Positions 4,682 to 37,612 of a stretch of DNA of 37,695 nucleotides are shown here, piece by piece (the stretch's first letter is position 1; each line of letters starts with the position of its first letter). This DNA is from Candidatus Giovannonibacteria bacterium RIFCSPHIGHO2_02_FULL_45_13. GTDB taxonomy: Bacteria > Patescibacteriota > Minisyncoccia > UBA11713 > 2-01-FULL-45-33. Below the pieces are notes generated by a model. That model was not told the DNA's origin, ran no database searches, and was given only the letters and a program-made list of their open reading frames with translations. The DNA lies in the NCBI GenBank assembly GCA_001778635.1, contig MFHO01000003.1:1-37695 (forward strand). Direction: 5' to 3'. The position numbers and the translations under genes are program-made.

Positions 4682-5650
4682 ATGCGTTACGACATTTATT
4701 TTCATGGTGGGTGTTTTGACGGAGCGGCATCGGCGGCGATGCTGCTTTATTTTTTAAGATTGCGCGGGGATGATTACGGAAAATTTATCCCGCTTACTCA
4801 TCCAATAAATAAAAAATGGTGGAAAAAATTAAAGCCCAAAAATCAGATGGCGATTGTTGACATAATTTATCATCCTAAGGCCGCAATCTGGTTTGATCAT
4901 CACCCCACTACTTTTATTGATAAAAAATGGGAGAAGAATTTCAAAAACGACAAAAATCATGTTCTAAATGACGGGAGTCCGTCATGCACCGGCCTGATTT
5001 ACAGGCATTTTACGAAAAAATTTCCGCCCAAGGCGGATCAGCCTCTGGCTGAAAAAATAGGCCCGCCGAAACGCATTAAAAATTTAGCTCATTGGGCGGA
5101 TATTATTGATCGGGCGCGGTTTGGATCAGCCAAAGAGGCAATGGGGTTTGGATCGGCAGCGCTAAGAATCGCTAAATCATTTGTTGATAAAAAGCCGTCG
5201 CTTGATTACGCGAAGTTGCTTATAAAAGCGCTTAGCGAGAAACCTCTTGCTTTTGTTGAAAAATTCAAGCCCGTTAGGACAAGATTTTTAAAACACAAAA
5301 GAGATTTGAAAAAATCTTTGCCGGAAATTAAAAAGCGACTGGTTTTGCGCGGGAAAGTAGTCGTACTTTATGGGATGGAGAAGCGCCTGGCTGGCGCGAG
5401 ATTCGCTTCTTATTATTTTTATCCGCAAGCAAAATATTCCGTGAGAATTTTAAAAAGAGACAATAATTACGTTTTAAGCGTCGGCCAAAATCCTTGGAAT
5501 CCTCCCAAGCGCCCAATGATCGGCCAATATTTAGAGAAGAAATACGGCGGCGGCGGGCATTCCGTCGCTGGGAGCGCGGCTTTTACAAAAAAAAGCGACG
5601 CTTTGCGCGAGGCATTGAATATTGCAGATTATTTAAACAAACATGTCTAA
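4682..5650 (+). CDS. DHH-family phosphoesterase
   Basis: MRYDIYFHGGCFDGAASAAML, AIWFDHHPTTF, C-terminal GGGGHSVAGSAAF (DHHA1). Confidence 0.85.
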   Translation: MRYDIYFHGGCFDGAASAAMLLYFLRLRGDDYGKFIPLTHPINKKWWKKLKPKNQMAIVDIIYHPKAAIWFDHHPTTFIDKKWEKNFKNDKNHVLNDGSPSCTGLIYRHFTKKFPPKADQPLAEKIGPPKRIKNLAHWADIIDRARFGSAKEAMGFGSAALRIAKSFVDKKPSLDYAKLLIKALSEKPLAFVEKFKPVRTRFLKHKRDLKKSLPEIKKRLVLRGKVVVLYGMEKRLAGARFASYYFYPQAKYSVRILKRDNNYVLSVGQNPWNPPKRPMIGQYLEKKYGGGGHSVAGSAAFTKKSDALREALNIADYLNKHV

Positions 5651-24358: not shown

Positions 24359-26173
24359 ATGGCACTATTAGACATTTTTAGAAAAAAGAAAAAGGAAGAA
24401 GCGGAAATCATTCCTGTTTTTCCGGAGGAAATTTACCGCGCGGGAGTTTTGGAGTTAAGGGACATAATTGCCCCGGCCGCGCTTGAGATTACCGCTAACC
24501 ATGTCAGGTTGGGCGAAAAGCTTGCGCGCGTGATTTTTGTGTTTTCTTTGCCGCGCTTTTTATCCTCAAACTGGTTTAGTCCAATTATAAATTTGGATAA
24601 AGTTTTTGATGTTTCAATCTTTATCCATCCGGTGGATACCGCAACCGTCCTGAAAAAACTTCAGAGAAAAGTTGCCGAGGTGCAGTCGCAAATCGCGATA
24701 AGGCAACAAAAGGGCTTAGTCCGCGATCCGATTTTAGATACGGCCTTTCAAGATTTGGAAGCTTTGAGAGACAAACTCCAACAGGCGCAGGAAAGACTTT
24801 TTAATTTCGGACTTTACATCGCAATCTACGGCAACACCATCGAAGAATTGGATAAGGCGGAAGCGGAAATAAAATCAATGCTGGAGTCGCGGCTTGTTTA
24901 CGCCAAGCCAGCGCTTTTTCAACAAAAAGAAGGATTGGATTCCGTCTTTCCGCAATCATACGACGCGCTTTTGGTGAACAATTATTTAAATTCTTCCCCG
25001 GCCTCCAGTGTTTTCCCGTTCGTTTCTTTTGATCTCACTTCAAATAAAGGCATTTTATACGGCATCAACTCACACAATAATTCGCTAATACTTTTTGATC
25101 GATTTAGCTTGGAAAATTACAATTCCGTGATTTTTGCCAAAGCGGGCGCCGGAAAATCTTACGCGACAAAACTGGAAATCTTGCGCTCCTTGATGTTTGA
25201 TACGGACGTTATAGTAATTGACCCGGAGCGCGAATATGAATATCTTGCCGAAGCAACCGGCGGGAGATATTTTAATATTTCTTTAACTTCGCATCATCAT
25301 ATTAATCCTTTCGATCTTCCTACGCCGCGCGAAGACGAATCTCCATCGGATGTTTTGAGGTCGCACATAATAAATCTGGTTGGACTTTTTAGAATAATGC
25401 TTGGCGGTCTGACTCCGGAAGAAGATTCTATCATAGACCGCGCGATTTCCGAAACTTACGCTTCACGGGATATCACGCCTGATTCGGATTTTTCAAAAGC
25501 CATTCCACCGATACTTTCGGATCTCGAATTGGTTCTTGCCAACATGGAGGGAGGTGAATCGCTCGCGCAGCGGCTGCGCAAATTTACAAAAGGCACGTGG
25601 GCCGGGTTTATCAACCAGCCGACCAATGTTGATATAAATCAAAAATTTGTCGTGTTTTCAGTGCGTGACATGGAAGAAGAGTTGCGGCCGGTGGCAATGT
25701 ATTTGATTATTAACTACATCTGGAGCGCGATTCGCGCGGAGATCAAAAAAAGGATTTTGGTGGTGGATGAAGCGTGGTGGATTATGAAAAACCAGGACGG
25801 AGCATCGTTTCTTTACGGGATCGCCAAGCGCGCGAGAAAATATTATTTAGGAGTTGCCACAATAACGCAGGATGTTGGAGATTTCTTAAACTCTCCGTAC
25901 GGAAAGCCGCTGATCACCAACTCATCAATTCAAATGCTTTTGCGTCAATCCCCGGCAGCAATTGATGCGCTTAAAGAAACTTTTAATTTAACGGATGAAG
26001 AAAAATTCTTGCTTTTAGAGTCAGACGTGGGGGAGGGATTATTTTTTGCCGGACTGAAGCACGTTGCAATCAAGATTTTAGCGTCTTACACGGAGGACCA
26101 ATTGATAACTTCCGATCCTGCACAATTGTTGGCAATTAAAAAAGCAAAGGAGGAATTTGGGCAGCAAACATGA
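24359..26173 (+). CDS. VirB4-type secretion ATPase
   Basis: Walker A FAKAGAGKSYATKLEIL, IDPEREYEYL, Walker B RILVVDEAWWIM, ITQDVGDFL. Confidence 0.92.
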   Translation: MALLDIFRKKKKEEAEIIPVFPEEIYRAGVLELRDIIAPAALEITANHVRLGEKLARVIFVFSLPRFLSSNWFSPIINLDKVFDVSIFIHPVDTATVLKKLQRKVAEVQSQIAIRQQKGLVRDPILDTAFQDLEALRDKLQQAQERLFNFGLYIAIYGNTIEELDKAEAEIKSMLESRLVYAKPALFQQKEGLDSVFPQSYDALLVNNYLNSSPASSVFPFVSFDLTSNKGILYGINSHNNSLILFDRFSLENYNSVIFAKAGAGKSYATKLEILRSLMFDTDVIVIDPEREYEYLAEATGGRYFNISLTSHHHINPFDLPTPREDESPSDVLRSHIINLVGLFRIMLGGLTPEEDSIIDRAISETYASRDITPDSDFSKAIPPILSDLELVLANMEGGESLAQRLRKFTKGTWAGFINQPTNVDINQKFVVFSVRDMEEELRPVAMYLIINYIWSAIRAEIKKRILVVDEAWWIMKNQDGASFLYGIAKRARKYYLGVATITQDVGDFLNSPYGKPLITNSSIQMLLRQSPAAIDALKETFNLTDEEKFLLLESDVGEGLFFAGLKHVAIKILASYTEDQLITSDPAQLLAIKKAKEEFGQQT

Positions 26174-26188
26174 TAAAATAAAATTAAA

Positions 26189-27178
26189 ATGAGTAAGCTT
26201 TACAAAAATTTAATAATATTTACCGCGCTGTTTTTGGCCTTAAACGCATCTGCGCTTATTCTGACTTCTCCGAACGATTTGGTTTTGAGCGTATCTCCGG
26301 CTTCTCCGAGAGCCGGGCAGGTTGTAACCGTTACTGCTAAGTCTTTCGCGTTTGACGCCCCACGCACGAATTTTAGATGGACCTTAAACGGCAAGGAAAT
26401 TGCTTCCGGCGTCGGCTTGGTTGAACAAACATTCACGGCCGGCGCGCTTGGATCGGTTATGAATATTACTGTTCGCGCGGTATCTGCGGACGGACTGCCT
26501 TACGAAGCCGGTGTCTCCGTCTCAATCGCTGATATTGATTTTGTGGTTCATTCAGCAACTTACGTTCCGCAATTTTATCGCGGGGCCGCGCTGCCCACGC
26601 CGGGCAGTGTTGTTGAAGTGATTGCTGTGCCGCATTTGTTTAGAGGCGGCTCAAGAATTTCTCAGCAAAACTTGATTTACGAGTGGTCTTTGGATGGCAA
26701 GCCGGTTCTTTCTCAATCTGGTGGTGGAAGAAATAAACTTGCGCTTAAATTAGCGGACGTCGGTGGCAGCAGTTATCTTGTGACTTTGAAAATAAACACG
26801 CTGGACGGCGTGGTATTCACGCAAAAAAGCGCGCGCATAAAAACTTACGAGCCGGAAATTTTATTTTACGAAACAAACGCGCTTACCGGCCTCAAGCCGC
26901 AAGCAATACTCTCGTTTTTTGGGCTGGCCGGAAGCTCTTTTTCAATCTTAGCCGAGCCGTTTTTCTTTGATTTAAACTCTTTAAAACGCTCCGAAGTACG
27001 CTGGAGCGCGAATGGAGAAAAAATTGCTTTGACAGCCGAGCCGAAAAACCCGCGACTTTTGGAGCTCACTGCGCCGTCAGGCGCGGAATCGCAGACAAAT
27101 TTTTCTCTAAAAATTGAGGACAAAGAGCACATTTTTCAAAGCGCGGAGGCGGGATTAATGGTAAAGGCTAGCCAATAA
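26189..27178 (+). CDS. Secreted Ig/PKD-like protein of the T4SS-like operon
   Basis: Signal peptide, then RAGQVVTVTAKSF...RWTLNGKEI and IYEWSLDGKPVL-type beta repeats. Confidence 0.6.
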   Translation: MSKLYKNLIIFTALFLALNASALILTSPNDLVLSVSPASPRAGQVVTVTAKSFAFDAPRTNFRWTLNGKEIASGVGLVEQTFTAGALGSVMNITVRAVSADGLPYEAGVSVSIADIDFVVHSATYVPQFYRGAALPTPGSVVEVIAVPHLFRGGSRISQQNLIYEWSLDGKPVLSQSGGGRNKLALKLADVGGSSYLVTLKINTLDGVVFTQKSARIKTYEPEILFYETNALTGLKPQAILSFFGLAGSSFSILAEPFFFDLNSLKRSEVRWSANGEKIALTAEPKNPRLLELTAPSGAESQTNFSLKIEDKEHIFQSAEAGLMVKASQ

Positions 27179-27183
27179 ATTAA

Positions 27184-27292
27184 AATGTCAAAGCTCAAAT
27201 TTCAAATCAAATCCAAAATCAAAAATCCAAAAATTTTGACATTTGGGCTTTTGGTTTTATTTGGCATTTGGATTTTGTCATTTGGTTTTTTT
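27184..27292. repeat. AT-rich imperfect inverted repeat forming the signal-peptide coding region
   Basis: AAATGTCAAAGCTCAAATTTCAAATCAAATCCAAAATC... resembles the reverse complement of ...GACATTTGGGCTTTTGGTTTTATTTGGCATTTGGATTTTGTCATTTGG. Confidence 0.65.
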
Positions 27293-27658
27293 GCTGTGGC
27301 GGGTGACGGCGTTCAATATAATCTTCTCCAACCCTTGCCAAGTGTTGGCAAACAAGTCAGTTCCTTCCCACAATATATTCAAGGACTTATTCCTTTCATC
27401 TTAAGCCTAGCCGCCGTGCTCGCGGTGGTGATGATTGTAATCGGCGGGATTCAATACGCAATCTCCGAAGCAGTTGATGCAAAAGCGGATGCCAGAGACC
27501 GCATCACGCAGGCAATTTTCGGATTGCTTCTCGCGCTTTTGTCTTACTTGATTCTTTGGACCATAAATCCTCAACTTGTTAATTTGAAATTGGATATTAA
27601 ATCTTTGCAACAAACCACAAACACCGGCGGAGGAAGCGGCACTACTGGCAGTTTTTAA
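27185..27658 (+). CDS. VirB2/TrbC-like pilin candidate
   Basis: Signal region, then two TM helices (LIPFILSLAAVLAVVMIVIGGIQYAISEAVDAKADARDRITQAIFGLLLALLSYLIL). Confidence 0.65.
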   Translation: MSKLKFQIKSKIKNPKILTFGLLVLFGIWILSFGFFAVAGDGVQYNLLQPLPSVGKQVSSFPQYIQGLIPFILSLAAVLAVVMIVIGGIQYAISEAVDAKADARDRITQAIFGLLLALLSYLILWTINPQLVNLKLDIKSLQQTTNTGGGSGTTGSF

Positions 27659-27667
27659 TTTTCAAAC

Positions 27668-28948
27668 ATGGAAAACTTATTAACAAAAAGAAATATAATA
27701 ATCGCTGGGGTGGTGATTGTAATAATCATCGGAGCTTTGGTTTGGTTTGGGTTGAAAAATGGGACTGGAACGGAAGACGGAGGATTTTTTGGGTTGTTTC
27801 CTTGGGCTCCGCCCGGCTCCTCGAAACCTGGTTTTGAGACTTCCCAAAAACCAGGTTTCTTCCCGCCGGGCGGCGTTTCCCCGGGCGGCGAACAGCCTTT
27901 TACTCCGGAGGCAGCACAAAACCTCCCAGTCGGCACATTAATCCGCTTAAGTTCAGACAACATCTCTTCGCTAGTCGGCGTCGGAACAACGAGTGTTAAA
28001 TATCACAAAAATATTCCTGAAAATTTAGGGCATCTTTTTGAGCGAAGAGCTGATGGAACAAATGAAGAAAAAAGGATTTCCAATTTCACAATACCGCAGG
28101 TTTTGCGCGTTGTCTGGGCTCCGGATGGCAAGAAAGCAGTTGTTTTTTACAATTTAGATAATCAGATAAGAAAACTGCTGATTGATTATGCGACAACAAC
28201 GCCGAAAACCAGCTTTTTACCCGATTCAATATCAGATATTGCTTTCTCACCAGATTCCAAATCCCTTGTGTTTATAAACAATCTGCCTGCCTCGCCGAGT
28301 CAAGGCGGGGGAGATAGTCAGAATATTTTCGCATCCACCGCTGACTTTAAAAACCAAAGAAAAATTTTTGATAACAATGTCCCGGGCTTTGAAATCTCGT
28401 GGCCCGCCGCCAATACAATCGCGCTAAAAACCAAATCTTCCTACGGCGCGCGCGGATTTATTTACGCGTTAAATGCATCAACCGGCGCGCCTGCCTCGCC
28501 GAGTCAAGGCGGGTTTAACAAAGTTGCGGAGGGCCTTGGGCTGGATGCCATTTGGAACTCCGACGGCTCCGGTACGCTTTACTCGGTTTCGGACGCGGAC
28601 GGTAATTTGCTAAACTTAAAATTTGTTGATGCCAAAACCGGAGCAACAAAAGAATTTAGTGTAAAAACCATTGCCGAAAAATGCGCATTTTCAAAAACCC
28701 GGAAAAATTTAGTTTATTGCGCTGTGCCAGATAACCCACAGCAAGCAAAGTATCCGGACGCGTGGTGGCAGGGGAAGGTGACATTTCGCGATGATTTTGT
28801 TTCGATTGATGTTTCTTCCGGCCAAACTTCCGTTTTGGTTTCCGCAAAAGCGGACGCAACTCAACCGAGAGTGTTAAGCGACGATTCGTGGCTTTTATTC
28901 CGCGACAAGTCCTCCGGCAACCTATGGAGCTTGAAACTTAAACTGTAA
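27668..28948 (+). CDS. TolB/WD40-like beta-propeller protein with N-terminal TM anchor
   Basis: VVWAPDGKKAVVFYNLD, DIAFSPDSKSLVFINNL, ALDAIWNSDGSGTLY-type blades. Confidence 0.7.
   Translation: MENLLTKRNIIIAGVVIVIIIGALVWFGLKNGTGTEDGGFFGLFPWAPPGSSKPGFETSQKPGFFPPGGVSPGGEQPFTPEAAQNLPVGTLIRLSSDNISSLVGVGTTSVKYHKNIPENLGHLFERRADGTNEEKRISNFTIPQVLRVVWAPDGKKAVVFYNLDNQIRKLLIDYATTTPKTSFLPDSISDIAFSPDSKSLVFINNLPASPSQGGGDSQNIFASTADFKNQRKIFDNNVPGFEISWPAANTIALKTKSSYGARGFIYALNASTGAPASPSQGGFNKVAEGLGLDAIWNSDGSGTLYSVSDADGNLLNLKFVDAKTGATKEFSVKTIAEKCAFSKTRKNLVYCAVPDNPQQAKYPDAWWQGKVTFRDDFVSIDVSSGQTSVLVSAKADATQPRVLSDDSWLLFRDKSSGNLWSLKLKL
27809..27873. repeat. In-frame palindromic element in the beta-propeller gene
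   Basis: CCGCCCGGC/GCCGGGCGG outer and GAAACCTGGTTTT/AAAACCAGGTTTC inner stems; reverse complement of the core of 23511-23615. Confidence 0.92.
28285..28309. repeat. Short in-frame repeat copy 1 (GCCTGCCTCGCCGAGTCAAGGCGGG)
   Basis: 25 bp identical to 28489-28513; codes PASPSQGG. Confidence 0.9.
28489..28513. repeat. Short in-frame repeat copy 2
   Basis: 25 bp identical to 28285-28309, same reading frame. Confidence 0.9.
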
Positions 28949-28980
28949 AAAATCAGAGGCCTACCGTTCTTGATAGACCT
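28945..28980. terminator. Bidirectional terminator
   Basis: GAGGCCTAccgttcttgaTAGACCTCctttttg on plus; GAGGTCTA...TAGGCCTCtgatttttt on minus. Confidence 0.75.
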
Positions 28981-29092
28981 CCTTTTTGAAATGCTGTTTT
29001 TCGCGCTTGCGGTCGTAGCCTCGCTTGCCTTTCTTCGTCCCCTGCGCGCCGCCCTTTTGGCGGGGCAGAGGAATGCGGCCCAGCTTTTTCAT
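28961..29092 (-). CDS. 43-aa very basic small protein (MKKLGRIPLPRQKGGAQGTKKGKRGYDRKREKQHFKKEVYQER)
   Basis: ORF below track threshold; strong RBS AAAAGGAGAGAAAAATG; downstream of tRNA-Pro. Confidence 0.7.
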   Translation of the reverse strand: MKKLGRIPLPRQKGGAQGTKKGKRGYDRKREKQHFKKEVYQER

Positions 29093-29118
29093 TTTTCTCT
29101 CCTTTTCAAAAAGTTTGA

Positions 29119-29192
29119 TCAGGGCGGCAGGATTTGAACCTACGATCTCCTAGTTCCGGGCTAGGTGCTCTATCAAACCGAGCTACACCATG
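29119..29192 (-). tRNA. tRNA-Pro(CGG), CCA not encoded
   Basis: Reverse complement folds as a cloverleaf: D-arm GCTC...GAGC, anticodon stem-loop CCTAG-CCCGGAA-CTAGG, T-arm GTAGG-TTCAAAT-CCTGC, acceptor CATGGTG/CGCCCTG with one mismatch. Confidence 0.85.
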
Positions 29193-29224
29193 ACAAAAAT
29201 TTGGTGTATTTATATAAATGGGAG

Positions 29225-29620
29225 GGGAATGAAGAGGGGCCAGTCGGTATGACATTTTCAGCCGCGACTTCTTTGAAACTTTAACGCAGTTCTTGCGATG
29301 CGCTCGGCTGGATAATTACTTACCCAACTCCGCGGTTTAAGGACGCCATTCCCCGTTGCGCCCCAAGGGATTTCCCCTTTTTGATTTTTTCAAAACATCG
29401 CTTAGCAATCGGATTGTTAAGTGATTCCTTGGGAGGCCGAAGGACGGGGACCCATGAACACCCAGGCCTTTGGTCTCCCAAGGACCCGCCTAGACTCGCT
29501 AGGCGAGGCTGGTGGACCACCCATGTTTACCTATTAAACTTCGGGATAATCCGCCGGCCGGGGCTATTATTTTGGTTTATGCCCTCGATACCGCGTTATC
29601 CCTGCATTAAGCTTAACTAT
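29225..29620 (-). ncRNA. Unidentified large structured RNA (~400 nt) upstream of tRNA-Pro
   Basis: Canonical promoter on minus strand; hairpins CGCCTAG-ACTCG-CTAGGCG, CCTTGGGAG...CTCCCAAGG, CTTAGCAAT-CGG-ATTGTTAAG; no convincing ORF. Confidence 0.6.
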
Positions 29621-29624
29621 CACC

Positions 29625-29652
29625 ATTATACTCCTATTAAAAAATTTGTCAA
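29625..29652 (-). promoter_or_regulatory. Sigma70-type promoter for the unidentified RNA
   Basis: Minus strand TTGACA-N16-TATAAT; the -35 overlaps the inverted repeat ATTTGTCA-AGCCCCCC-TGACAAAT (29644-29667). Confidence 0.85.
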
Positions 29653-29745
29653 GCCCCCCTGACAAATCTGCTAATTTGGGCTTATTTTGCGTGTTTTGAC
29701 ACTATAACAAGTGCGCCTCACCATAATTTATGATATAATTGTTCT

Positions 29746-30525
29746 ATGTTAGACGAGCTTAAAAAAATTGGGCTTTCGGAAAATGAGGCAAGGGTGTATC
29801 TTGCGCTTTTGGAGTTGGGATCTGAAACGGCGCAGGAGATTGCCAAAAAAGCAGGTGTAAAGCGCGCGACTACTTACGTGCAACTTGATGCTCTTATGAA
29901 AATGGGATTAGTAACCTCGTTTGAAAAAGGTCTGCCTGCCGGCAAGGCAAAGAAAAAAAGCTATTTCCGCGCGGAAGACCCTGAACATTTAATTAAAATC
30001 GCCGAGCGCGAAAAAAAAGTTGCCAGAGAGCGCGAAAGCGCGTTGGAAGAAATCCTGCCGGGCCTCGGCAAACTTTATCTCTCCGCCGGCGAACGTCCAA
30101 GGGTGAGATTTTTTGATGGGGTGGAGGGGCTTAAAACAATGCAGGCGGAATTCCTAAAATCCGGCGCTGAACTTGTTGAATCTTTTTCATCGGCTGACGA
30201 TGTCGCAAAAATTTTTCCGAAATTCGGCGAAGAATACGAGCCCCAAAAAATCAAAAGAAAAATTCAATCCAAGGTAATATACACGAGCGCCAACGGCTCA
30301 TTTCTTAAAGAAGTTGATATGATAGCGTTGAGGGAATCGCGATATATTCCGCCGGACGAGTTTCCGGTGTCATGCGACATATCAATTTACAAAAATACAG
30401 TCTCAATATCTGTTCTGCGTGGCAAAATCTTCGGAATTTTAGTTGAAGGCGAAGAGATAGCAAAATCCATGCGCTCGTTTTTTAAGCTTGCTTGGGAAGC
30501 GGCCGAGAAATATAAAAAAATCTAG
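29746..30525 (+). CDS. TrmB-family transcriptional regulator
   Basis: MLDELKKIGLSENEARVYLALLELGSETAQEIAKKAGVKRATTYVQLDALMKMGLV. Confidence 0.85.
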   Translation: MLDELKKIGLSENEARVYLALLELGSETAQEIAKKAGVKRATTYVQLDALMKMGLVTSFEKGLPAGKAKKKSYFRAEDPEHLIKIAEREKKVARERESALEEILPGLGKLYLSAGERPRVRFFDGVEGLKTMQAEFLKSGAELVESFSSADDVAKIFPKFGEEYEPQKIKRKIQSKVIYTSANGSFLKEVDMIALRESRYIPPDEFPVSCDISIYKNTVSISVLRGKIFGILVEGEEIAKSMRSFFKLAWEAAEKYKKI

Positions 30526-30555
30526 GGGGCACGCGCGTCGCGGCCCCCTTGGGTT
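30522..30555. terminator. Bidirectional terminator
   Basis: GGGGGCacgcgcgtcgcgGCCCCC; T-run after the stem on the minus strand (TAGATTTTTTT). Confidence 0.75.
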
Positions 30556-30824
30556 ACTGCCATTTTTATTTGTTTCTTCCGGGTTTGCCGAGAATTTTTT
30601 ATCCGCGAAGCCCTGATTCGGCGTTTTTTATACTAAGGCTTCGGAGAAAACGCTTTCAAAAACTGAAAAACCATTCTCCCACTGCTCAACCAGTGGTGTT
30701 CACAAATCCAAGCTGCAAATCAAACCTCAAGACCAAGCCACAAACCGAAAGCTTTACTTACCCGTACAATCCCATTCAGCCTCCTCCCTTGCCCGCCTAA
30801 ATGCGAAGCTTTTGGCGGGTTCTG
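30525..30824 (-). ncRNA. Second unidentified RNA (~300 nt), promoter and terminator bounded
   Basis: Minus-strand promoter, hairpins CCCGCC...GGCGGG, CCACTG-GTTGAG-CAGTGG, CGAAGCC...GGCTTCG, terminator at the end, no ORF of note. Confidence 0.5.
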
Positions 30825-30830
30825 CCCCCA

Positions 30831-30858
30831 TTATAGCAAATCTACAGGTTTTGTCAAC
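30831..30858 (-). promoter_or_regulatory. Sigma70-type promoter for the second unidentified RNA
   Basis: Minus strand TTGACA-N16-TATAAT. Confidence 0.8.
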
Positions 30859-37163: not shown

Positions 37164-37205
37164 CCCCCACACCAAATCGGTTCACAAAGTGATTTGGTGT
37201 GGGGG
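37164..37205 (+). promoter_or_regulatory. 15-bp perfect hairpin spanning the ssrA 5' end
   Basis: CCCCCACACCAAATC-N12-GATTTGGTGTGGGGG. Confidence 0.8.
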
Positions 37206-37558
37206 TGAATTGGATTCGAGGAAGAATAAATTATCATGCGCTCAGGCAGAGTATGTGAAGTATGCTCTTGAAATTTTCTTCACAAACCAATAAGTGCAAA
37301 CTTATTTTCTAAAGTAGCGGCTGTTTTTGGCTCTTTACGGCCAATGCAGCTTGCCACTTCTTACGCTTAATTTAGTGTGAGCATTGGTCCTTGATTCTCG
37401 CTAGAGGGTTGCCAGTGTTATAAGCGGGACGGCATTGATAAAAGCTCCGCATCAATGCAAGCAAACAGGGGTAAAATTTTCCGCCAAAGGCGGATAAAAA
37501 GCTTGTCAACCGCAGATTATGAGTTCTTCCGACCCGGGTTCAACTCCCGGCATCTCCA
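37201..37558 (+). ncRNA. ssrA: Transfer-messenger RNA (tmRNA)
   Basis: 5' GGGGGTGAATTGGATTCGA and 3' GACCCGGGTTCAACTCCCGGCATCTCCA; acceptor GGGGGTG/CATCTCC; resume codon candidate GCA at 37296; directly downstream of smpB. Confidence 0.92.
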
Positions 37559-37612
37559 CATAACAATACTTCCGCCTTTTTCAGAGAGGATTGCCTCGGG
37601 GCTTCGCCCCTC

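Follow-up and report, generated by a model that had tools for sequence, protein, structure and literature searches.

A conserved structured RNA absent from Rfam and putative 5′ leader of a TrmB-controlled transcript in a Patescibacteria genome

Judged from comparison with related genomes, a core of ~200 nt on the minus strand of the window (about 29624-29424) is a conserved structured RNA that is absent from Rfam. The window is the whole stretch of 37,695 nucleotides analyzed here and corresponds to contig C3 of an 834-kb genome (G000). On the available sequence evidence we lean toward the reading that this core is the structured 5′ leader of a TrmB-controlled transcript, and that leader and boxA elements may together protect a poorly translated RNA.

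The transcript was delineated from its signals. A perfect sigma-70 type promoter, TTGACA-N16-TATAAT, is present at 29652-29625 on the minus strand with 12 of 12 matches, as the initial annotation had stated, and it is aligned and conserved in the genomes G001 and G007. Placed from the promoter sequence, transcription would start near 29618. The leader is followed by a variable spacer of ~230 nt, by tRNA-Pro(CGG) as cargo (29117-29193; ARAGORN and Rfam), by an ORF for a basic protein of 43 aa (28961-29092) and by an intrinsic terminator recognized from its sequence (28982-28955), which overlaps the end of the ORF; all are encoded on the minus strand. The earlier succession of tRNA, small ORF and terminator was thus recovered element by element, and the tmRNA was confirmed elsewhere in the window (37201-37559). 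No intrinsic terminator was found at the end of the core, between the core and tRNA-Pro. BLAST searches of seven family genomes yielded no comparable tRNA-Pro, and the coupling of leader and tRNA-Pro is specific to the window genome.

Conservation is higher in the core than in the genes around it. The core shares 92.8% identity with the sister genome G001, compared with DNA identities of 71.7% for the TrmB gene, 72.8% for the PD40 gene and 78.7% for VirB4. The boundary at its 3′ side is sharp: the next 229 nt (29195-29423) are essentially unalignable to G001, with 58% identity. This non-conserved 3′ stretch (29194-29423, minus strand; fold z −2.0) could be spacer or cargo of the transcript. 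Single-base indels relative to G001 shift the frame and disrupt any ORF through the core, in agreement with the earlier view that the stretch holds no plausible ORF.

The fold of the region 29195-29630 outscored all of 100 dinucleotide shuffles (z −3.1), and that of the leader in G009, another genome of the family, reached z −6.6. The leader comprises two parts, both on the minus strand. The 5′ domain (29525-29622) contains a GGGATAA/TTATCCC hairpin, and the model built for it, R1, finds G000, G001 and G007. The second part (29424-29525) contains a first CATGGGT motif, the CGCCTAG palindrome and the GGGAGACC/GGCCTCCC hairpin, whose loop carries CATGGGT again; the model of this part, R2, finds G000, G001, G007 and G009. 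Promoter and 5′ domain are retained at 75% in G007, which belongs to a second genus, and G009 retains the second hairpin. Because the pairs of the 5′ domain are invariant across three genomes, variation neither supports nor contradicts them. In the GGGAGACC/GGCCTCCC hairpin, double-sided changes were found at 4 of 14 pairs, compared with at most one in slid controls, and the covariation score was reached by 3 of 500 shuffles. The compensatory changes among the four sequences provide good but not overwhelming support for this hairpin. CATGGGT is invariant in its loop in all four genomes, and the second copy of the motif lies upstream of the hairpin.

The dense hairpins described in the initial annotation are present, but two of the three cited contain dispersed palindromic repeats. 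The CTTAGCAAT-CGG-ATTGTTAAG hairpin (palindrome CTTAGCAATCGGATTGTTAAG) belongs to a dispersed repeat with copies in 7 of the 10 genomes of the family; the reversed control gave 0 matches. The CGCCTAG hairpin occurs at the same place in G001, yet it also matches scattered sites in several genomes. Copies of the palindrome TTAGCAATCSGATTGCTAA were noted in the window at 29401-29421, within the non-conserved 3′ stretch, in G009 at C10:34631-34649, where the copy sits within the loop of another hairpin, and in G000 at C35:47505 and C35:48264. The two copies on contig C35 are 0.75 kb apart, have near-identical flanks and resemble a small mobile repeat. Dispersed palindromes inside the stretch would fit a decayed or mobile island of phage or plasmid type, made of palindromic repeats and leftovers and giving an RNA without function, as would the hypervariable cargo and the inverted position relative to the relatives. 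A core that is constrained more than protein genes and has compensatory pairs, a conserved promoter and operator and the absence of significant PHROG matches in the tested cargo speak against it. We regard such an origin as very improbable for the locus, and for the core it is already strongly disfavored.

The core was compared with known RNA families. Over 28950-29760, only the tRNA passed the gathering threshold in a search of Rfam 15, which included 6S, SRP, group I/II introns, T-box, GOLLD, ROOL, OLE and raiA, and a search of the stretch with a permissive E-value returned nothing credible. In the arrays of the relatives, likewise, only tRNAs passed. The covariance search that the initial annotation had proposed as a check on novelty was therefore negative at the stretch, and 6S and the other Rfam families were discarded as identities. 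The initial annotation had also reported the RNase P signatures as missing. No RNase P match indeed exists here, but RNase P itself is not missing: RF00010 matched with 135.6 bits on another contig (G000:C26:8454-8906), which excludes the idea of a missing rnpB and with it the window RNA as RNase P. For the core, RNase P, a known Rfam RNA and chance structure are excluded as explanations. The locus also recalls GOLLD and ROOL, in which a long structured RNA lies beside a tRNA. Neither covariance model matched, and in contrast to these RNAs the window RNA is without any Rfam match, is conserved over only ~200 nt and has a tRNA neighbor that varies between genomes.

A homologous leader was found in three other genomes of the family, G001, G007 and G009. 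In each of them it lies downstream of a TrmB-family gene and is followed by different cargo, namely a long non-coding stretch plus tRNA-Tyr in G001 and small-ORF arrays in G007 and G009. As the same leader stands before different cargo in the three relatives, its behavior is that of a 5′ leader to an operon of variable content. The window leader is inverted relative to these loci: it lies between the PD40 gene and the TrmB gene and is divergent from the latter, whereas in the relatives it is downstream. Thus, of the novel ~400-nt structured RNA gene put forward initially, the structured RNA stands, being Rfam-negative, better conserved than its neighbors, supported by compensatory changes and served by a conserved promoter. 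A separate gene of ~400 nt does not, since only about half of that length is conserved, no terminator precedes the tRNA and the cargo varies in three relatives.

Wider searches were performed with both models and with a degenerate pattern. R1 gave one further match in 188 genomes, which lay inside a protein gene and was rejected (G045, E 0.017). R2 gave two further weak matches in 384 genomes; one was inside a protein gene and was rejected (G327), and the second had an E-value of 0.045 (G343). The degenerate pattern, applied to all GTDB r220 genomes, found three family contigs and one chance match in Streptomyces, and it found none in IMG/VR. The CATCAAAGTT hairpin was dropped as a mark of a widespread cassette, as the exact pattern occurs only in G007 and G009. 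Between families, clear homology of the leader sequences was not seen (z 2-3 at best), and homology of the family f1 and f7 leaders is only suggestive. The minus-strand leaders L084, L085 and L111 of family f7 have a conserved structure of their own with several compensatory pairs, together with the same operator and TrmB, and are weakly similar to the window leader.

The conserved core could also act by itself, as a stand-alone trans-acting small RNA that is cut or ends near 29420, acts for instance via its two CATGGGT motifs and has only incidental cargo. The drop in conservation downstream of the core, which itself outconserves the flanking genes, and the invariant CATGGGT in the loop of four genomes with its repeat upstream of the hairpin would suit such an RNA. 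We nevertheless consider it unlikely, as the core end lacks an intrinsic terminator, an ORF with a ribosome site begins ~20 nt behind the hairpin in G009, and the context of operator, TrmB and array is common to families with different leaders. Another possibility is a regulatory leader in the narrower sense (riboswitch, attenuator or protein-binding element), which would respond to a ligand or to a product of the array, e.g. the small basic protein, and regulate the first cargo via read-through or translation. The conserved hairpin with its invariant loop, the basic, RNA-binding-like character of the terminal protein and the one-gene distance in G009 point in this direction. However, neither an alternative terminator nor sequestration of a ribosome site is visible, and the first cargo, a tRNA in the window, differs in every genome, so that a sensing function appears quite unlikely. 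The reading as a 5′ leader of a TrmB-controlled transcript is retained in what follows.

The regulator gene lies next to the promoter at 29746-30525 on the plus strand. Its product was assigned to the TrmB-family transcriptional regulators (PF01978, E 1.7e-17, 63.4 bits at a cut-off of 25.6), with the Pfam match covering the N-terminal domain only, and it is the candidate binder of an operator. The candidate operator, TGTCA-N8-TGACA (29647-29664, minus strand), was recognized from its sequence, its position over the −35 box, its enrichment and its closeness to TrmB genes. All leader promoters examined share it or a near match, with the right half within the −35 box. In the window genome it is the only exact instance. 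The combined pattern TGTCA-N7-TTGACA plus TATAAT gave 42 matches in 28 of 384 genomes of the class, compared with 2 for the scrambled pentamer TCTGA. A TrmB gene was present in 17 of 30 operator loci fetched at 3 kb, or in 12 of 25 when the five previously known loci were left out; the loci with TrmB cover eight families in all and are not all independent. In G212 the TrmB gene lies just beyond the 3-kb locus. In the comparison set of promoter loci fetched for other reasons, TrmB was found in 2 of 19. Several operator matches have no TrmB gene within 1.5 kb. In family f40 the site is directly before TrmB itself, as expected of autoregulation. From this proximity we infer that TrmB may bind the palindrome. 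The arrangement resembles archaeal and bacterial TrmB systems in its HTH regulator and in a palindromic site near promoters that it possibly controls, its own included. It differs in that structured RNA and arrays of small ORFs, not sugar transport genes, would be its targets. No literature linking TrmB and Patescibacteria was found.

Further features adjoin the regulator gene. A companion transcript (30520-30857, minus strand) starts from a promoter with 12 of 12 matches (30857-30830), ends with a terminator that abuts the TrmB stop codon and is 78% identical in G001. Within its ~300 nt it carries an ORF of 5 codons, MGLYG (30775-30758, minus strand), behind a strong ribosome site. Promoters in the same direction occur at the companion position in other genomes, and mini-ORFs behind strong ribosome sites were noted at this position in other families. 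Genes for a VirB4-like conjugal ATPase, a pilin-like protein and a PD40 protein adjoin the locus at 24359-28948 of the window, a neighborhood common only within the family. A link to conjugation-type genes was rejected, as the PD40 and VirB4 neighbors are absent beside the arrays of other families.

One order of elements recurs in the families f1, f7, f10, f31 and f53. A TrmB gene is followed by a strong promoter, a structured leader and small ORFs with structured spacers between them, and then by a small basic protein. Such loci often include this protein, which was found in five families. The 43-aa protein of the window belongs to this small-protein family. Direct search found relatives in G007 and in genomes of four additional families of the class, and G358 and G329 of family f7 also encode one. 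In an alignment of six relatives the residues R, P, GGA, KG, Y, R and K do not vary (pattern RxP...GGA...KG...Y.R...K), and the 43-aa protein had no match in Pfam, PHROG or NCBIfam. Among the cargo, the ORF MAWYC... is common to G007 and G088, which belong to different families. The tested cargo ORFs matched no Pfam family, and their PHROG matches were insignificant and to entries of unknown function. A structured spacer module of ~170 nt (GTGCCGTGGGGTTTAGGCAAAGATTACCCACG...) was observed between small ORFs twice in G007 (L046:4000-4200 and 4870-5050) and once in G009 (L047:4430-4630). The G007 array also contains a motif resembling a type III hammerhead (L004:2209-2263, plus strand, equal to G007:C2:3337-3391). 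It scored 38.4 bits against RF00008 (E 1.5e-5), below the gathering score of 48.5 bits, and its core CUGAUGA has C for U; no literature on CPR hammerheads was found. The arrangement of leader and small-ORF array was found in no database or paper, and the TrmB-linked small-ORF array is apparently a locus type without earlier description. By its gene content, the window locus would apparently be a minimal or reduced member of it, with tRNA-Pro and the small basic protein.

In ten arrays the heptamer GTTCTTT occurred 22 times in sense and 0 times in antisense orientation, which made it the most strand-biased heptamer, ahead of Shine-Dalgarno heptamers. The control, long ORFs on those contigs, had 18 sense and 35 antisense copies. 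GTTCTTT is often located after a hairpin and before a ribosome site. It matches the core GYTCTTT of the gamma-proteobacterial boxA consensus GYTCTTTAANA (PMC5725501). GTTCTTT could not be linked to the rRNA leaders of the present genomes: the 16S gene was located in just 2 of 8 genomes, and the sole full 16S leader carries AACTTTGAAAA. As a separate observation, the 16S rRNA gene of G001 (L061, G001:C9:69345-70329, minus strand) is seemingly interrupted by an insertion with a small ORF (MRKIKKRPKRKMRQ...), perhaps an intron. In rRNA operons the order is boxB, boxA, boxC, with boxA as the key element (PMC10250234), and BoxA keeps Rho from terminating transcription of a long non-coding 5′ stretch (PMC4807359). 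The related array spacers resemble such NusB/NusE-dependent antitermination leaders in having a hairpin followed by GTTCTTT on the transcribed strand, and the transcript, like that of an rRNA operon, is long, structured, little translated and also carries a tRNA. In contrast to rRNA antitermination, boxA is repeated before individual small ORFs in the arrays, rRNA is absent and the operator is of the TrmB type. The boxA core was found 0 times on the transcribed strand of the window copy, and GTTCTTT is also absent from the G105 and G018 arrays. Antitermination therefore rests on the relatives.

Short structured 5′ leaders before long variable operons are also known from phage-type processive antitermination RNAs (nut, put) and from the EAR and LoaP leader hairpins. 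Compared with these, no dedicated antiterminator gene, no sequence match and no Rfam match were found here.

A mechanism can be proposed for the TrmB-controlled transcript. TrmB would bind the palindrome and repress the promoter until a signal releases it, a role suggested by the overlap of the palindrome with the −35 box. RNA polymerase would then make a long, mostly structured and poorly translated transcript, the 5′ end of which may be capped and stabilized by the leader hairpins. In the longer relatives, boxA-like elements would bring in NusB/S10 and thereby keep Rho from ending the transcript. RNase P would cut out the tRNA, and the small proteins would be translated and act together. The window copy would be a reduced array without boxA, in which only the leader and the control by the operator are left. 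More tentatively, these loci may form a distinct Patescibacteria locus type, a dedicated antiterminated small-protein operon. In it, a TrmB-controlled leader and many spacer boxA elements would drive long arrays that encode rapidly changing tiny proteins along with tRNAs and small RNA modules. The conserved basic protein would stand at the end of an array or go along with it, and the window would hold a minimal member.

Patescibacteria are abundant, have few regulators and are for the most part uncultured, yet at this locus a regulator, its likely DNA site, a leader RNA and a small protein can be named together. If the proposed reading is true, it would provide a first testable regulon for TrmB proteins in Patescibacteria and would suggest that boxA serves to protect untranslated transcripts far beyond rRNA operons. 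It would also explain a class of long, gene-poor structured regions that annotation has left blank in these genomes.
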